Origin: Halorubrum aquaticum
GTDB taxonomy: Archaea > Halobacteriota > Halobacteria > Halobacteriales > Haloferacaceae
Direction: 5' to 3'
DNA length: 64,000 nt
Assembly (NCBI RefSeq): GCF_900113615.1
Contig: NZ_FOPZ01000003.1
Coordinates: 186,001 to 250,000 of the forward strand
Every line of letters starts with the position of its first letter. Positions within the stretch are counted from its first letter, which is position 1. The notes under the pieces were generated by a model that made no database searches, was not told where the DNA came from, and worked only from the letters and a program-made list of their open reading frames with translations. The position numbers and the translations under genes are program-made. Positions 363 through 6,735 of this stretch are shown one piece after another.

Positions 363-1502
363 TTATTTCACTTTTCCACGTGCTTGAACGGGCCAGAATT
401 CCTCGACACGGCCGTCACGCACGCCGATGATCATGTCGTGGAGATTGACAGTCGTACAGACGTGGGGAACAATGAACTCGATTCGATCCCCAACCGCGAG
501 TGACCCATCGACGTCGGCGGTGTCGAGCCAGCCGTGCTCCTCGGACGCGTTCACGTATTCGATGTCGTCACGGTATCTGGGCACGGGCAGTTGCGACGTG
601 TCCATCGAGAGCGTTTTGCTCCCGGCGTCGACGACCGCACGGTCCTCGCTAGGGGTGGATATCACGCTCGAGACGACGGTCGCCGCGCAGTCGGTCCGAT
701 CGACTTCGAACGGTCGATGTTCGAGTTCACCCACGTCCATAAACGGATACATTCCCGGATTGATCTCGGTGACGACCGGATGTCGTCCACTGTATCTCGA
801 GGTGGCCGTCCCGCCCACTTTGACTTCCGGGACGGAGATACCCTCGGATTCCAGCAGGTCAACTGTCTCCTGTACACGATCCATTGCCTCCGCACAGTAC
901 GTCTCGTACTCCGCTTGCGTCTCAGCTTCGGATTTGACGTGGGCCTCGTAGGCGAGAAGCCCTTGGAAGTTCAGGTTCGGCTGCTCGCGCACGAACCGTG
1001 CCGTCTCCAGCGCAGGTTCGCCCGGTGCGACGCCCGTGCGGTGTAATCCGACGTCGACCTCCAGGATCACATCGATGTCCTCGCCCCGCTCCGCCGCGGC
1101 CTCCTGGAGCGGTTCGATGTTTCCTGGCCCGTCGACGGTCGTGGCGAATCGATCGAGTTTCTCGGACAACCATACGAGCCGCTCAAGTTTCCGTCGGCCG
1201 ACGATCATATACGAGAGATAGACGTCGTCAATGCCGTTCCTCGCCATGACTTCGACCTCACTGAGGGTCTGACAGACGATCCCGCTGTCACCTCCATACT
1301 CGCTCTGTCGCTTGGCGAGTTCGGCGTTCTTGTGTGTCTTGACGTGCGAACGGAGTCGGACGTCGTTTGCCTCCGCGAACGAGACGTACTCCCGGACGTT
1401 CGCTTCCATCGTGTCGAGGTTGACCAACAGCGCCGGCGTCTCGATCTCGTCTTTCGGCGTCCCTAGAGCTGGTCGCGTCTCCGCGGTCGTCGGGATGGGC
1501 AT
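363..1502 (-). CDS. D-serine dehydratase / D-threonine aldolase-like PLP enzyme (DSD1 family)
   Basis: A 379-aa protein with the alanine-racemase-type N-terminal barrel and the C-terminal D-serine dehydratase-like domain. Motif RSHVKTHK carries the presumed PLP lysine at about residue 55. Near the C-terminus PHVCTTVN supplies a His-x-Cys pair (about H347 and C349). In the characterised family, zinc D-serine dehydratases use His-x-Cys, whereas D-threonine aldolases use His-x-Asp, so the sequence leans toward D-serine dehydratase. The ORF opens upstream at 1589, but those 29 residues look like untranslated leader. The ATG at 1502 gives MPIPTTAETR and matches the family length. Convergent with the truncated deacylase. 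The IS lies 174 bp upstream. Inferred role: removal of D-Ser or D-Thr released by the neighbouring deacylases. Substrate unproven. Confidence 0.85.
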   Translation of the reverse strand: MPIPTTAETRPALGTPKDEIETPALLVNLDTMEANVREYVSFAEANDVRLRSHVKTHKNAELAKRQSEYGGDSGIVCQTLSEVEVMARNGIDDVYLSYMIVGRRKLERLVWLSEKLDRFATTVDGPGNIEPLQEAAAERGEDIDVILEVDVGLHRTGVAPGEPALETARFVREQPNLNFQGLLAYEAHVKSEAETQAEYETYCAEAMDRVQETVDLLESEGISVPEVKVGGTATSRYSGRHPVVTEINPGMYPFMDVGELEHRPFEVDRTDCAATVVSSVISTPSEDRAVVDAGSKTLSMDTSQLPVPRYRDDIEYVNASEEHGWLDTADVDGSLAVGDRIEFIVPHVCTTVNLHDMIIGVRDGRVEEFWPVQARGKVK

Positions 1503-1676
1503 GGGTGAAATACAAAAAACGACGACAAAAGTCTTGCCGCCGGCCTGGCGGCGTTTTCGTTGGAGATACCTTATAAAACAGGCATCCACGATATTTCTTC
1601 ATCAGGAGGTGGTCGTCTGTATACTCTCAAAACGGTTGTCTACATCATTGGTTCAGATACACAGGATAATAGACAA

Positions 1677-2679
1677 CGCTCTTGTGACGTAAATTGTTGG
1701 TGAGTCAGAGAACTTCTCGAATAATCTGTTTCAGTGCTTCTCGTCCTGGTTTGCGGAGGATTCGTCGCCGAAGTTGGAGCGGTCTGAGATACGCTGTCAG
1801 TTTGTCCTTTGAGACGCCTCGATGTGGCGAGAGCCACCGTCGCGCCAGCGACGCGTGGCTCTCGCACGTGTTCACGTGCGCGTCTCCATCAACGTACTCG
1901 CCGTCACCGTGAATAACTGCTTCTCGGTGGAAGTTCTCGTCATCGTCAAGCGGATCGTAGGCCCGAAATCCGTCCGTATAGACGGTCAGCGACTCCTTCT
2001 TGTGGTTGTCGAGAAGGAGTCGCACCGTCGCTTCGTCGGCGGATTTCGCCGGGACGACGTACCGCTGACCGGTGCCGCGATCAACGAGCGTGAACACCGG
2101 CGGTTTGTCCTCTTCATACGTTCCTCGTCCGCGTTTCGAGAGGGCACGCGAGCGCGACCGAGAGTCGCGCTCGCGGCCTTTCTTCCCGGCAGAGACGTAG
2201 AACTCGTCGATCTCAACCGGGCCAACGAGAGAGATGTCTGGCGCGTCGAGCGTTCTGGCGAACTGCTCGACGCGCCGGCGGAGCGAGCGATACGAAACGT
2301 CAATTTCAGCGTCTAGCTGGCGGATACTCGTGTTGAACCGGAGGAACGAGTAGAACGCGAACAACAGCTTGTCGAGGCCGATCTTCGCGTGCGCGAAGAT
2401 CGTGCCGGTCTTGTCGTTGAACGTGCGGTCGCAATCCTTACAGAGATACCGTTGGTACTCTCGATAGCTGCCGTGTTTGATCACCGATTCAGACCGGCAG
2501 CGCGGGCAACAGAGCCCCTCGCGCCAGCGAACCTGCTCCAGCAGGTTCGCGGCGCTCGCCTCTGAGCTCAGCAATTCAAATGGGAACATTGCGTTCGGGT
2601 GACGCGTTCGCGTCACCCTTGCCCGCTACGCTTTCACAGCGACAGCTCTACCCGACCAACAATCTGCTTCGGAAGAGCG
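1677..2679 (-). mobile_element. Complete IS1595-family insertion sequence (ISH4-like), 1003 bp
   Basis: The ends are imperfect inverted repeats. Read inward, the left end starts CGCTCTTGTGACGTAAATTG and the right end CGCTCTTCCGAAGCAGATTG, both continuing TTGGT. The element is flanked by a perfect 8-bp duplication ATAGACAA at 1669-1676 and 2680-2687, as expected for IS1595-family transposition. It contains one intact transposase gene. About 1.0 kb and an 8-bp duplication fit the haloarchaeal ISH4 group. The perfect duplication and open frame indicate a recent, probably active insertion. It sits in AT-rich DNA between the D-serine dehydratase-like gene and the HTH-10 regulator. Confidence 0.95.
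1705..2589 (-). CDS. IS1595-family transposase (ISH4-like)
   Basis: A 294-aa transposase from the ATG at 2589 (MFPFELLSSE); a GTG at 2616 would add nine residues. The N-terminus has a zinc ribbon with Cys pairs CCPRC and CKDC, used for DNA recognition in this family. The ISXO2-like DDE domain shows VEIDEFYVS (first Asp), VYTDGFRAYD (second Asp) and HVNTCESH, followed by RRWLSPHRG, matching the DDNE arrangement of IS1595 transposases. No frameshift or internal stop is visible, so it is probably functional. It would catalyse cut-and-paste movement of its own 1003-bp element and could act in trans on the related MITE at 2817-2970. Confidence 0.95.
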   Translation of the reverse strand: MFPFELLSSEASAANLLEQVRWREGLCCPRCRSESVIKHGSYREYQRYLCKDCDRTFNDKTGTIFAHAKIGLDKLLFAFYSFLRFNTSIRQLDAEIDVSYRSLRRRVEQFARTLDAPDISLVGPVEIDEFYVSAGKKGRERDSRSRSRALSKRGRGTYEEDKPPVFTLVDRGTGQRYVVPAKSADEATVRLLLDNHKKESLTVYTDGFRAYDPLDDDENFHREAVIHGDGEYVDGDAHVNTCESHASLARRWLSPHRGVSKDKLTAYLRPLQLRRRILRKPGREALKQIIREVL

Positions 2680-2816
2680 ATAGACAAAAATTTTGAAATG
2701 GGAAACCATGCTGCTACTATTTCCATATAAAGATATATTTATCGTCAATTTCGATCGCTTTTTCAAATAGTATGGGATAATGGAGCTTTATGTGGGATAC
2801 ACTGTTATATATCCAA

Positions 2817-2970
2817 CGCTCTTGTGGCGTAGGTTGTTGATACAGTTCTCCCGAAGAGAGTGAGGATAGAAAGTGACCGGTAAACCGCTCAGACAGCTGG
2901 TTCTCATCTAGGTTTTTCTATGGCAGAATCGTAAGACGGCACTACATCAACAATGTGCTACGCATGAGCG
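2817..2970. mobile_element. 154-bp MITE related to the ISH4-like element
   Basis: The left end starts CGCTCTTGTGGCGTAGGTTG; the right end, read inward, starts CGCTCATGCGTAGCACATTG. Both continue TTGAT, and both resemble the ends of the IS at 1677-2679. A 9-bp direct repeat TATATCCAA flanks it (2808-2816 and 2971-2979), consistent with an 8-9 bp target duplication. The interior holds no coding frame. Size, ends and duplication fit a miniature inverted-repeat element mobilised in trans by an IS1595-type transposase. Its right end is 57 bp before the HTH-10 regulator, so it may have displaced or supplied promoter sequence. Confidence 0.85.
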
Positions 2971-3027
2971 TATATCCAAATCCTTGCGATCTACTATTAT
3001 TCTTGGTAGTATCCATATAATTTGGTT

Positions 3028-3798
3028 ATGACTGCCGAAACATTTATAATTCTACATCTGGCGCCTGATGGCATGGGAGAAGCTCTCAATAGATCATCAA
3101 CTACGATCCCTCGGACGTCGCAACTCGCGCTCCGCATCTGGCATCCGGACTGTTGGACGCTACAGACGACCGCGGCCGTCGACGCCGGACTCATCGCACA
3201 CGGAGTCTACGAGTACGACGACATCGTGAGTGCGCGACTGACGGCTCATGCAGACACCACCGATCGGATCGACGACCTCGTAGCAGAGATCAAGGAATCG
3301 CCGCTGACCGAACGGGCCAAAGTAATCAACGAGTATTTCAATCCCGGATTACAGACGAATCCGGCCGGAAACGCCACACAGGAGCTCCTCGTCGAATACG
3401 AGCCGGAAAATAGCATCCACGACGCCTTCGTCTCGCGTGGCTTCGTTCCCGAGGAGGAGATCCGGATGAACGACGGCTTTGAGTACTGGACCGTCATCGT
3501 CCGTGCGTCCCGGAACATGATCCAGGAGCGGTTGGACGAGATCCGCCAGGAGATGGACGCCGAGATCCGGATCGAGGGAATGAAATCGGCACAGACGACT
3601 ACCGCTCAGCGCCAACAAAACGATCAGTTGTCGGAACGACAGCGGGAGATCTTCGAGCTCGCACAGGAGGAGGGGTATTACATGTGGCCCCGCGAGACGT
3701 CCGCCACCGATCTTGCGGACGAGGTCGACATCTCGAAGACGACCTTCCTCGAACACCTCCGTAAGGCGGAGGCCAAAATTCTCGGCAAGATGGACTAG
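3028..3798 (+). CDS. HTH-10 (bacterio-opsin activator-like) transcriptional regulator
   Basis: About 256 residues from the ATG at 3028 (MTAETFIIL); a later ATG at 3073 (MGEALNRSS) is an alternative. The C-terminal 60 residues form the HTH-10 domain: LSERQREIFELAQEEGYY, then DLADEVDISKTTFLEHLRKA, the recognition helix region. The N-terminal part contains LALRIWHPDCWTLQTT, a signature of the haloarchaeal Bat/HTH-10 sensory domain (W-H-P-D-C-W), followed by a mixed alpha/beta region that probably binds a ligand. Such proteins are typically local activators. Its place between the D-serine dehydratase-like gene and the threonine-synthase-like gene suggests it controls the catabolic island. Upstream DNA is AT-rich and carries the MITE. 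Confidence 0.85.
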   Translation: MTAETFIILHLAPDGMGEALNRSSTTIPRTSQLALRIWHPDCWTLQTTAAVDAGLIAHGVYEYDDIVSARLTAHADTTDRIDDLVAEIKESPLTERAKVINEYFNPGLQTNPAGNATQELLVEYEPENSIHDAFVSRGFVPEEEIRMNDGFEYWTVIVRASRNMIQERLDEIRQEMDAEIRIEGMKSAQTTTAQRQQNDQLSERQREIFELAQEEGYYMWPRETSATDLADEVDISKTTFLEHLRKAEAKILGKMD

Positions 3799-3867
3799 AT
3801 CTAGCTACCGATCGGTGCCGTCCATGAGAGGCGGTGGATTCTCTTCGTTCCCGCCCGACCGCGGTGT

Positions 3868-5097
3868 ATGGACCACGTCGAAACGTTGGAGTGTACCCTC
3901 TGTGGCGCGGAGTACGACCCCGACCAGGTGATCTACACGTGTCCGAACCACCCCGGCGTGAAGGGCATCCTCGACGTCACGTACGATTACGACGCCGTCG
4001 TCGACCGGTTCGACGAACCCCTCGACGGGGACATCCGCTCGCAGTGGAAGTACCGGGCGTTCCTCCCGGTCGCGGATGACTCGGAACCGGTGACGCTCGG
4101 TGAGGGCGGGACTCCCCTCCTCGAGACGCCCCGGCTCGGGACGGAACTCGGCGTCGACCTCCGCGTGAAGGACGACGGCCGCAACCCGACGGGCGTGTTG
4201 AAGGACCGGGCGACCTCGATCTCGGTGACGAAGGCGGGCGAGTTCGGGCGGGAGGTCGTCACCTGCGCCTCGACCGGGAACGCGGCGGCGTCGCTCGCCG
4301 GCTTCGCCGCCCGGGGCGGACTCGACTGTCGGCTCTTCGTCCCCGGCGACGCGCCGGAGGGGAAGTTGGCACAGCCGCTCGTCTACGGCGCGGACGTGCT
4401 CGGCGTGGAGGGGAGCTACGACGAGGCGTACGACCTCAGCATGGAGGTCACGGAGCGGTTCGGCTGGTACAACCGCAACGCCGCTGTCAACCCCTTCCAG
4501 GTTGAGGGGAAACGGACCGTCGGCCACGAACTGGCCGAACAGACACGCGGCGACGTTCCCGACTGGCTCGTCTTCTCGATGGGCGACGGCTGTACGATCG
4601 CCGGCGGTTGGAAGGGGTTCCGCGAGTTCCACGACCTCGGCTTCGTGGACGAGGCTCCGAGGATGCTCGGCGTTCAAGCCGAGGGCGCGAGCGCGATCCA
4701 CGACACGTTCCACGACCACGACGACGTCGACGACGTCGCCGACACCGTCGCGGACAGCATCTCCGTCGGCCGGCCACGGAACACGGTGAAGGCGTGCTCG
4801 GCGCTCGAGGAGAGCGGCGGCGAGTCGGTCCTCGTGAGCGACGAGGAGATCCTCGCCGCCGAGTCGCTTCTGGGACGGACCGAGGGGATCTACGCCGAAC
4901 CCGCGGGGGCCACCCCGGTCGCCGGCCTCCGGAAGGCGCGCGAGGCGGGGGTCGTCGAGGCGGGCGACTCCGTCGTCGTCGTCGTCACCGGAAACGGGCT
5001 GAAGGACACCGAGAGCGCGATGCGGGCCGGCGGCGAGGTCGACGCGATCTCCCCGGAGATCGACGACGTGGTCGACCGGTATCCCGACGAGGCGTGA
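3868..5097 (+). CDS. thrC: Threonine synthase-like PLP enzyme
   Basis: A 409-aa fold-type II PLP enzyme. The N-terminus has a rubredoxin-like metal-binding start (Cys 9, 12 and 25: CTLCGAEYDPDQ, then TCPNHPG), common in archaeal threonine synthases. The PLP lysine is about K112 in NPTGVLKDRAT; classical enzymes have NPTGSFKDR, so the two residues before the lysine differ. ASTGNAAASLAG binds phosphate and SMGDGCTIAGGWKGF is the second phosphate loop. Threonine synthase converts O-phosphohomoserine to threonine. The altered lysine loop and the catabolic neighbourhood leave open a threonine or serine deaminating role. Lies 69 bp after the HTH-10 gene on the same strand and converges on the deacylase at 5116. 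Confidence 0.85.
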   Translation: MDHVETLECTLCGAEYDPDQVIYTCPNHPGVKGILDVTYDYDAVVDRFDEPLDGDIRSQWKYRAFLPVADDSEPVTLGEGGTPLLETPRLGTELGVDLRVKDDGRNPTGVLKDRATSISVTKAGEFGREVVTCASTGNAAASLAGFAARGGLDCRLFVPGDAPEGKLAQPLVYGADVLGVEGSYDEAYDLSMEVTERFGWYNRNAAVNPFQVEGKRTVGHELAEQTRGDVPDWLVFSMGDGCTIAGGWKGFREFHDLGFVDEAPRMLGVQAEGASAIHDTFHDHDDVDDVADTVADSISVGRPRNTVKACSALEESGGESVLVSDEEILAAESLLGRTEGIYAEPAGATPVAGLRKAREAGVVEAGDSVVVVVTGNGLKDTESAMRAGGEVDAISPEIDDVVDRYPDEA

Positions 5098-5115
5098 CCC
5101 GAACGGGGTCCCGAA

Positions 5116-6735
5116 TCACCGGTCCGAGAGGTCCGGACGACGTGGGTCCTCCCACTCCTCGACGGAGCGGAGCACCCGTCCCGGACGGGTCCCAGTCGGC
5201 TCGCCGTCCTCGACGACGAACTCGCCGCCGACCACGACGTGTTCGATCCCGTCCGATAGCCGCATCGGGTCGTTGAACGTCGCGTTCGCCCGGACTCGAT
5301 CCGGGTCGAAAACGACCAGGTCGGCGACGTATCCCTCGAACACGCGGCCACGGTCCGGGAGGCCGAGCACGTCGGCCGGGTGACCGGCCGCCTTGTACAC
5401 CGCGTCCTCGAGTGGGAGCACCTCGCGGTCACGGACGTACCGCTCCAGCAGCCGAGGGTACGTTCCGACGGCCCGCGGGTGTGGCTTCCCGCCGAAGATC
5501 CCGTCGGTACAGATCGTCCCGCGGAGGTCGGACAAGAACCGGTCGATGTCCTCGTCGTCCATCACGAAGTCCGCCATGGTGACGTCGAGGTCCTCCTCGA
5601 CGAGGAGGTCGCAGATCGCGTCGACCGGGTCCGCATCGTGTTCGGCCCCGATCCCCGCGACGGTCTCGCCCTCGGCTCGCCCGCTTCCCGTGTCGGTGAT
5701 GAGCACGTTCTCCCACGACCCGGCGGCTTTCGCGAGGTTCTCCCAGTCGCCGTCACCGGATTCGATGTCGTGTCGGATCCGGTCGCGGGCGTCGGGATCG
5801 GTCAGTCGCTCGAGGATCTCGTCCGTCTCGCCCGTTCGCGCCCACGGCGGGAGGAGCGCCGTCAGCATCGTGCTCCCCGCCGTCCACGGATACTGGTCGA
5901 ACGTCACCCGGACGCCGCGCTCGTTCGCGGCGTCGAAGACCTCGAGGATCTCCTCCGAGGCTCCCCAGTTGTCCTCGCCGGCGACCTTCAGGTGGGAGAC
6001 GTGCGGCTGACAGCCGGCGGACTCACAGAGCTGGACGAACCTGTCGATGGACTCGACCACCGCGTCGCTCTCGTTCCAGACGTGCGAGACCATGAACGAG
6101 TCGCGGGTCGCCAGCCGTTCACCGAGCGCCTCGAGCTCCTCGTCGGTCCCGTACGAACTCGGCGGGTAGATCATTCCGGTCGAGAGCGCGAACGCGCCGT
6201 CGCCGATCGCGGTATCGAGCGCGTCCGAGACCCGTTCGAGCTCGGCGGGTTCGAGCGGTCGGTCCTCGAAGCCCGCGGCCAACGACCGCAGGTTCCCGTG
6301 TGGGGCGTAGTACGCGCAGTTCACCGCCGGTTCCGCCCGCTCGAGCGCGTCGAGGAATCCGTCCGTCGTCTGCCATCCCCACGATTCGTGGGTCCCGAGA
6401 AGCGTTTGGACGCGGCGAGCCCACTCCTCGCGTCTCCCCTCGGGGACGGGTGCGACGCTAACGCCGTCCTGTCCTAACACCTCCAGTGTCACTCCCTGCG
6501 TCACCTTCTCGACCGTCTCGGGCCGATCCAACAGGCGAAGCTCGGAGTGTGCGTGCATGTCGACGAAGCCGGGAGCGAGCGCGGCCCCGTCGACGTCGAT
6601 CACGCGCTCGGCTCCGATCGGGTCGGCGGATACCTCGTCGATCCGTCCGTCGACGAGTCGAACGTTCGCCTCGATCGCCGGGGCGCCCGACCCGTCGTAT
6701 ACGGTCGCTCCGCTGAACTCGACGTCCTCGGTCAT
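5116..6735 (-). CDS. N-acyl-D-amino-acid deacylase (D-aminoacylase family)
   Basis: A 539-aa metal-dependent amidohydrolase. Features in order: N-terminal beta domain; HAHSE at about 61-65 (HxH metal ligands); EVLGQDGVSVAP at about 85-96; CQPHVSHLKVAG with the later histidine ligands; [20 protein letters not shown] with the catalytic Asp; and the C-terminal beta strands [12 protein letters not shown]. Family members cleave N-acyl-D-amino acids. At the position where the Alcaligenes enzyme has a zinc-ligand Cys (GNCG), this protein has Asp (GQDG), as does its paralogue at 9188. It is divergent from the amidohydrolase at 6825 (89 bp between starts), so the two may share a control region. Confidence 0.9.
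   Translation of the reverse strand: MTEDVEFSGATVYDGSGAPAIEANVRLVDGRIDEVSADPIGAERVIDVDGAALAPGFVDMHAHSELRLLDRPETVEKVTQGVTLEVLGQDGVSVAPVPEGRREEWARRVQTLLGTHESWGWQTTDGFLDALERAEPAVNCAYYAPHGNLRSLAAGFEDRPLEPAELERVSDALDTAIGDGAFALSTGMIYPPSSYGTDEELEALGERLATRDSFMVSHVWNESDAVVESIDRFVQLCESAGCQPHVSHLKVAGEDNWGASEEILEVFDAANERGVRVTFDQYPWTAGSTMLTALLPPWARTGETDEILERLTDPDARDRIRHDIESGDGDWENLAKAAGSWENVLITDTGSGRAEGETVAGIGAEHDADPVDAICDLLVEEDLDVTMADFVMDDEDIDRFLSDLRGTICTDGIFGGKPHPRAVGTYPRLLERYVRDREVLPLEDAVYKAAGHPADVLGLPDRGRVFEGYVADLVVFDPDRVRANATFNDPMRLSDGIEHVVVGGEFVVEDGEPTGTRPGRVLRSVEEWEDPRRPDLSDR

Follow-up and report, generated by a model that had tools for sequence, protein, structure and literature searches.

A 154-bp MITE upstream of an HTH-10 regulator gene is a member of the shorter of two related, length-locked classes of haloarchaeal MITEs

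In this work, we analyzed a short non-coding element in a 64,000-nucleotide stretch of the Halorubrum aquaticum genome, hereafter the window, and show that it is a MITE insertion belonging to one of two related length-locked classes of haloarchaeal MITEs, of 154 and ~165 bp. As a rule, MITEs are seen as variable by-products that do not last long. The element studied here is a member of an unusual family, in which the middles have drifted to ~37% identity with length and register held across an archaeal order. Such a family would offer a naturally occurring measure, of a kind seldom available, of how a transposition complex is arranged in space. We lean towards the reading, which we hold to be somewhat more probable than not, that the element is the product of transposition in an old, length-locked MITE class that tracks its helper IS, and that its length is kept by the geometry of transposition.

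Results

The insertion and the neighbouring IS

The following features were located in this part of the window:

1669..1676, plus strand: target-site duplication of the IS, ATAGACAA; second copy at 2680-2687; empty site in genome G110
1677..2679, minus strand: neighbouring IS of the IS1595 family, ISNph2-like, 1003 bp, with GT-type ends (TTGTTGGT), delimited by its ends and an 8-bp repeat
1705..2616, minus strand: transposase of the IS, 303 aa, IS1595 family (Pfam DDE_Tnp_IS1595, E 1.4e-19)
2808..2816, plus strand: left target-site duplication of the MITE, TATATCCAA; exact second copy at 2971-2979
2817..2970, plus strand: MITE of the 154-bp class, non-autonomous, non-coding, exactly 154 bp
2817..2841, plus strand: left terminal inverted repeat of the MITE, ending in TTGTTGAT; mixed sub-type
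2927..2970, minus strand: conserved right-end block of the MITE (44 bp), within which the right terminal inverted repeat occupies 2946-2970
2971..2979, plus strand: right target-site duplication of the MITE, TATATCCAA, 9 bp, identical to 2808-2816

The element is a genuine MITE insertion, a transposition product that duplicated 9 bp in the intergenic DNA upstream of the HTH-10 gene: it is short and non-coding, it has inverted ends shared with ISs, a 9-bp duplication and empty counterparts of its site, and it belongs to a repeated family. Genome G110, from the same genus, has a single TACATCCAA where the window carries the MITE and both 9-bp repeats. In BLAST alignments with that locus (L218), window positions 1540-1676 correspond to 5982-6118, 2680-2816 to 6111-6249, and 2971-3041 to 6241-6311, and because the flanking pieces overlap by exactly 8 bases at the IS and exactly 9 at the MITE, the repeats are target duplications. 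Both insertions are likewise missing from G105, another congener, as shown by BLAST and alignment; the stretch between them is 72% identical to G105 and 78% to G110, and the insertion points are clear. With at most one mismatch allowed, the window contains the degenerate end motif CGCTCNTNNNNNGNANNTTGTTG at four places only, the two ends of the IS and the two of the MITE, against 0.01 occurrences expected by chance.

These results bear out what the preliminary description observed, and its interpretation in part. The 154-bp element with its 9-bp flanking repeat is confirmed by the exact repeats and by the empty sites in G110 and G105, and the presence of a MITE upstream of an HTH-10 regulator by the inverted ends, the target duplication, the insertion point and the HTH_10 match. 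That description would have fallen with neither other copies nor an empty site; relatives in other haloarchaea and empty sites both exist. Further copies of ~150 bp, for which it had proposed to search the genome, did not appear: neither BLAST nor the end motif gave a second MITE in the 3.18 Mb (40 contigs) of the assembly. The target-rich AT patch that the two insertions were said to mark is loosely in keeping with the duplication-flanked targets of the family, which are A/T-rich at their edges, but a pair of insertions is no proof of a hotspot.

The neighbouring transposase scores 140.5 bits against NCBIfam NF033547 (cut-off 75) and is 96% identical to that of ISNph2. Among 15 measured ISs with TTGTTGGT ends, eight are 1003 bp long and the others 975-1002 bp. 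A second, ISHma4-like group, with transposases 68-74% identical, has TTGTTGAT ends; one of its members is 85% identical to ISHma4. Of the 13 copies measured in this group (a copy present under two locus ids being counted once), 12 are 1001 bp long and one is 996 bp. For both measurements, IS end pairs were sought at 930-1060 bp only, and 3 of 32 loci gave none. The ends of the ISHma4-like ISs are asymmetric, with GGAGA upstream and GCACA downstream, and the ends of the 154-bp class show the same asymmetry. The H. aquaticum assembly, 99.5% complete, holds one intact IS1595-family transposase, which is that of the neighbouring IS; an intact ISHma4-like transposase was not found in it. A decayed relative of the IS1595-family transposases, with several stops, lies elsewhere in the same genome (G000:C4:176124-177734).

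Family distribution and length classes

Using the window element as query, BLAST gave matches in 34 of 170 genomes of the family, many to the right end only, and in 14 plasmid records; some genomes carry several copies (e.g. five in G374). The right-end block (2927-2970), which is conserved in the family consensus, was matched alone in many genomes. A length-free pattern covering 139-169 bp recovered 48 stretches from the species-wide genome collection, 32 of them at 154 bp, seven at 151-153 or 155 bp, nine at 164-166 bp and none at any other length. Judging by the titles of their records, all 48 are presumably haloarchaeal, and the same pattern had 0 matches in viral contigs. Across 392 genomes of the order, 74 end pairs spaced by 147-207 bp were counted by hand. 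They are spread over 48 genomes and 25 of the 95 genera, and they measure 151-155 bp in 52 cases (154 bp in 41), 165-166 bp in 19, and 177, 192 and 198 bp in one each. We extended the scan to 87-147 bp, with no end pair found, and to 208-267 bp, with one, in 73 genomes picked for having the family (the 48 with pairs and 25 other BLAST-positive ones). The scans together span 87-267 bp.

The 177-bp pair (L070), and probably also a 169-bp pair, re-use the end of another element. At L165 (G296:C1:588199-588375) and L070, a 152-bp element adjoins a lone like end of 25 bp, an arrangement that would result from its insertion right beside the end of a different copy. An identical 154-bp element is present at four loci (L060, L069, L082 and L089), on contigs of Halorubrum sp. 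CSM-61 (two), H. halophilum and H. amylolyticum, which suggests, from the identity of these copies, recent transfer or movement.

The 105 elements used in the following comparisons over-represent the 154-bp class, since BLAST searches with the window element supplied some of them; the length counts free of this bias are those of the pattern scans. In the consensus of both length classes the conserved right block measures ~44 bp, and therefore the extra 11-12 bp of the ~165-bp class lie in the middle. This difference is about one helical turn, a hint at most, as two lengths cannot establish a period and the agreement may be coincidence. The window element fits the shorter class in its length, in the TTGTTGAT sequence at both ends and in the presence of the right block. 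A literature search, from which subscription papers and ISfinder were excluded, returned no description of a 154-bp or ~165-bp IS1595-type element in haloarchaea. The claim that such elements are unannotated elsewhere was dropped, as the plasmid gene tables list protein-coding genes only.

Correspondence of the MITE ends with the two IS groups

Positions 24-25 distinguish the two length classes: both ends carry AT there in 69 of the 79 shorter elements (151-155 bp), and GT in 17 of the 21 longer ones (164-166 bp). By sequence, the asymmetric end pair of the ISHma4-like ISs recurs in the 154-bp class, and the end pair of the ISNph2-like ISs, to which the neighbour belongs, in the ~165-bp class. 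The window MITE has AT after TTGTTG at both ends (TTGTTGAT, not TTGTTGGT), as do those 69 members of its length class. Its right end agrees in 24 of 25 bases (96%) with the downstream end of the AT-type (ISHma4-like) ISs L196 and L198, as against 83% over 23 bp for the neighbouring IS. The first 23 bp of its left end, in turn, are closest to the downstream end of the neighbouring IS (87%); over 27 bp, the left end is 81% identical to the upstream end of an AT-type IS, the end type that the family consensus of the left end resembles. The ISHma4-like assignment is thus firm for the class and for the right end, and mixed for the left end of the window copy, and the neighbouring IS is probably not the usual helper of this MITE.

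The proposal that the element is mobilised by the nearby transposase is accordingly weakened, not refuted: the first 23 bp of the left end speak for it, but the right end and the AT at both ends speak against it. Assigning the element to the same family as the IS is correct insofar as both carry ends of the IS1595 type, yet in its right end the MITE shows a sub-type other than the neighbour's. The ends had also been called ISH4-like; they are of the IS1595 type, in a comparison that covered ISNph2-like and ISHma4-like ISs.

Divergence, register and target duplications

We reduced the 64 elements of exactly 154 bp to 30 representatives with less than 80% mutual identity. Over positions 36-106, their mean gapless identity is 36.6%, compared with 25.1% for shuffled sequences, and over positions 43-100 it is 38% in register, compared with 23-26% at shifts of one to six bases. 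Because the middles are so divergent and yet in register, the 154-bp elements are homologous and far drifted, with few net length changes, and the family is old.

Exact target duplications of at least 8 bp are kept by 39 of the 105 elements, against 0.36 expected from shuffled flanks. They are present in 26 of 64 elements of 154 bp, 2 of 4 of 155 bp and 0 of 11 of 151-153 bp (154 bp versus shorter, Fisher 0.013; in the non-redundant set, 24/47 versus 0/11, Fisher 0.0016), although the off-length copies may be without duplications through age and not through an inability to move. In the longer class, duplications were found in 1 of 2 elements of 164 bp, 6 of 9 of 165 bp and 4 of 10 of 166 bp, and since all three lengths keep them, the length tolerance of the ~165-bp class is at least ±1 bp.

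We also compared gaps with substitutions. Independent pairs of the 154-bp class with an identity of at least 0.77 (26 of 39 pairs), a cut set after viewing the pairs, have 9 gaps to 356 substitutions; other cuts give 20/496 (0.70), 9/392 (0.75) and 4/222 (0.85), and all 39 pairs give 76/861 (0.088), a high ratio because distant pairs attract gaps. In the ~165-bp class, 10 pairs give a ratio of 36/343, and the three closest give 0/19. Mutation accumulation in haloarchaea (PMC9997560) gave 19/167 and 10/84 gaps per substitution, and 9/356 lies below both (Fisher 0.0003 and 0.0015, respectively). Against an intergenic control between the window and G105 (same aligner and cut; segments of at least 40 and less than 400 bp with identity of at least 0.77), which gave 9/141 (0.064), the deficit is ~2.5-fold and not significant (Fisher 0.063); a single G137 segment gave 0/7. 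Intergenic BLAST alignments without cuts gave 58/456 (G105), 6/78 (G137) and 0/5 (G110). We therefore regard the gap ratio alone as weak support, and the sharp length classes together with the register as the strong part of the evidence. A search for compensating gaps in equal-length pairs, which 1457 of 2014 pairs "passed", was discarded, as it had no null and free gapping raises the score anyway.

The HTH-10 gene and its surroundings

Downstream of the MITE, the following features were recognized:

2994..3018, plus strand: conserved block between the MITE and the HTH-10 gene, unchanged in G105 and G110 and almost unchanged in G137
3043..3050, plus strand: putative TATA-like box serving the HTH-10 gene; its position is the same in G105 and G137
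3073..3798, plus strand: HTH-10 transcription regulator gene, with a putative start at 3073 (a longer reading, 3022-3798, matches Pfam HTH_10 with E 4.5e-18)

The ATG at 3073 is kept in G105 and G137, and the ATG at 3028 reads ACG in both. The role of the TATA-like box is suggested by its distance of ~27 nt to the ATG at 3073. The MITE ends 102 bp before this likely start codon, upstream of the TATA-like box and of the 2994-3018 block, and the predicted core promoter of the gene is likely intact. The insertion nonetheless separates the box and the block from the sequences further upstream. An effect on the expression of the regulator, as raised in the preliminary description, is conceivable. 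Conserved intergenic blocks (2799-2809 and 2994-3018, in G105 and G110) flank the MITE, and they stand 163 bp further apart because it was inserted between them.

The HTH-10 gene lies among D-amino-acid-type genes (window 363-6735), which we list as a side observation:

363..1589, minus strand: alanine-racemase/D-serine-dehydratase-like protein
3868..5097: PLP-dependent enzyme
5116..6735, minus strand: amidohydrolase

A D-aminoacylase activity of the amidohydrolase is a guess, and the HTH-10 regulator may control these neighbouring genes.

Discussion

The near-constancy of length across very different middles suggests that the distance between the ends matters for jumping. In the mechanism that we propose, the transposase of the matching IS would bind both ends in trans and move the element, either by cut-and-paste or by copying; for the 154-bp class, this would be an ISHma4-like transposase. 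The length of the element is close to the persistence length of DNA, so that both ends would have to reach one transposase complex and would have to sit on the right faces of the helix. Copies gaining or losing bases would then stop moving, and the middle would otherwise be largely free to change. More tentatively, the two classes could be taken as a natural helical-twist experiment, in which two ancient satellite lineages, each tied to one of two related transposases, have over very long times preserved end-to-end distances that differ by one helical turn, since only such distances would close a short DNA loop in an IS1595-type transpososome. Both lineages would come from one ancestral satellite, because the right-end block is common to both, and would have diverged with their helpers; we regard this extended reading as possible but doubtful.

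The constant length might instead reflect a functional module in the interior, such as a small RNA or a sequence bound by some host or regulatory protein, in which the internal spacing counts and transposition geometry plays no part. The conserved in-register columns in the middle would fit such a module, as would the 44-bp right block, which reaches past the 25-bp IS-like repeat. Part of that block, GAGCTGTC, is also seen by eye near the opposite IS end, which we likewise count in favor of this explanation. We nevertheless consider it unlikely. Covariation on 36 gapless sequences was no higher than in the parallel-strand control, any given reading frame is uninterrupted from end to end in at most 8 of the 64 elements, and Rfam had no match in window 1500-3200. 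Besides, the 11-12 bp by which the ~165-bp class differs lie in the middle, its end blocks being as large as those of the 154-bp class.

Two more conventional origins are harder to reconcile with the data. An ordinary MITE moved by the neighbouring IS, spread recently from one 154-bp founder with no time for length change, would account for the typical MITE anatomy, for the left end of the window copy being closest to that IS, and for the identical copies within and between genomes (e.g. L157, L158 and L161; L056 and L099; the four loci described above), but the divergence of the middles contradicts a recent single spread, which we reject, the right end and the whole class point to the other IS group, and the window's own genome is without a second copy, so that this explanation is improbable. 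Still more remote is the classical case of a MITE cut from its parent IS by internal deletion. Such IS1595-family remnants do exist, of 192 bp (L107, in G461), 198 bp (L104, in G441) and 240 bp (L178, in G092), but their lengths are scattered and single, unlike the 154-bp and ~165-bp classes. For the window element itself an IS-deletion origin was rejected, as its matches to the five tested IS loci are confined to the outermost 23-32 bp. We thus retain transposition geometry as the preferred reading of the constant length. The family would be a ready substrate set for testing the geometry of transposition, and it provides an annotation rule for haloarchaeal genomes, namely two such ends 154 or ~165 bp apart.

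The ISNph2-like and ISHma4-like ISs of the IS1595 family share with the MITE inverted ends of ~25 bp and likewise duplicate 8-9 bp of their target, and their two end types correspond to the two MITE classes; in contrast to these ISs of ~1000 bp, the MITE is without a transposase, has an unrelated interior and a fixed length of 154 or ~165 bp. Duplications in the family are usually of 8 bp according to an excerpt of PMC8101967, and ISH4 copies with 8- and 9-bp duplications are tabulated in PMC10264941. Other haloarchaeal MITEs (the Haloquadratum families, ISH2 and MITEHsal1/2), as far as these partial sources describe them, also have IS-like ends and no transposase, and in the Haloquadratum MITEs only the terminal bases are related to the supplying transposon (PMC3119063, in part). 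ISH2 (531 bp) and MITEHsal2 (411-413 bp; PMC10264941) are longer than the 154-bp element, whereas MITEHsal1 and most Haloquadratum families, compared from descriptions without sizes, could coincide with it.

Two other systems can be compared with the proposed length dependence. The original IS50 helical-twist study reportedly used an engineered length series in bacteria. In short IS50/Tn5 transposons, the distance between the ends and the helical phase govern activity (as cited in an excerpt of PMC3464196), so that end distance is in focus as it is here, with the difference that the bacterial length series was engineered and the pattern described in this work is a natural one. The closest precedent for the geometry reading is provided by the internal eliminated sequences of Paramecium, whose lengths show a ~10-bp periodicity that has been read, in the same excerpt of PMC3464196, as DNA looping in a transpososome-like complex. 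These sequences are alike in being transposon-derived and length-patterned; they are, however, eukaryotic, of many lengths and excised in development, whereas the elements described here are mobile archaeal elements of two narrow lengths.
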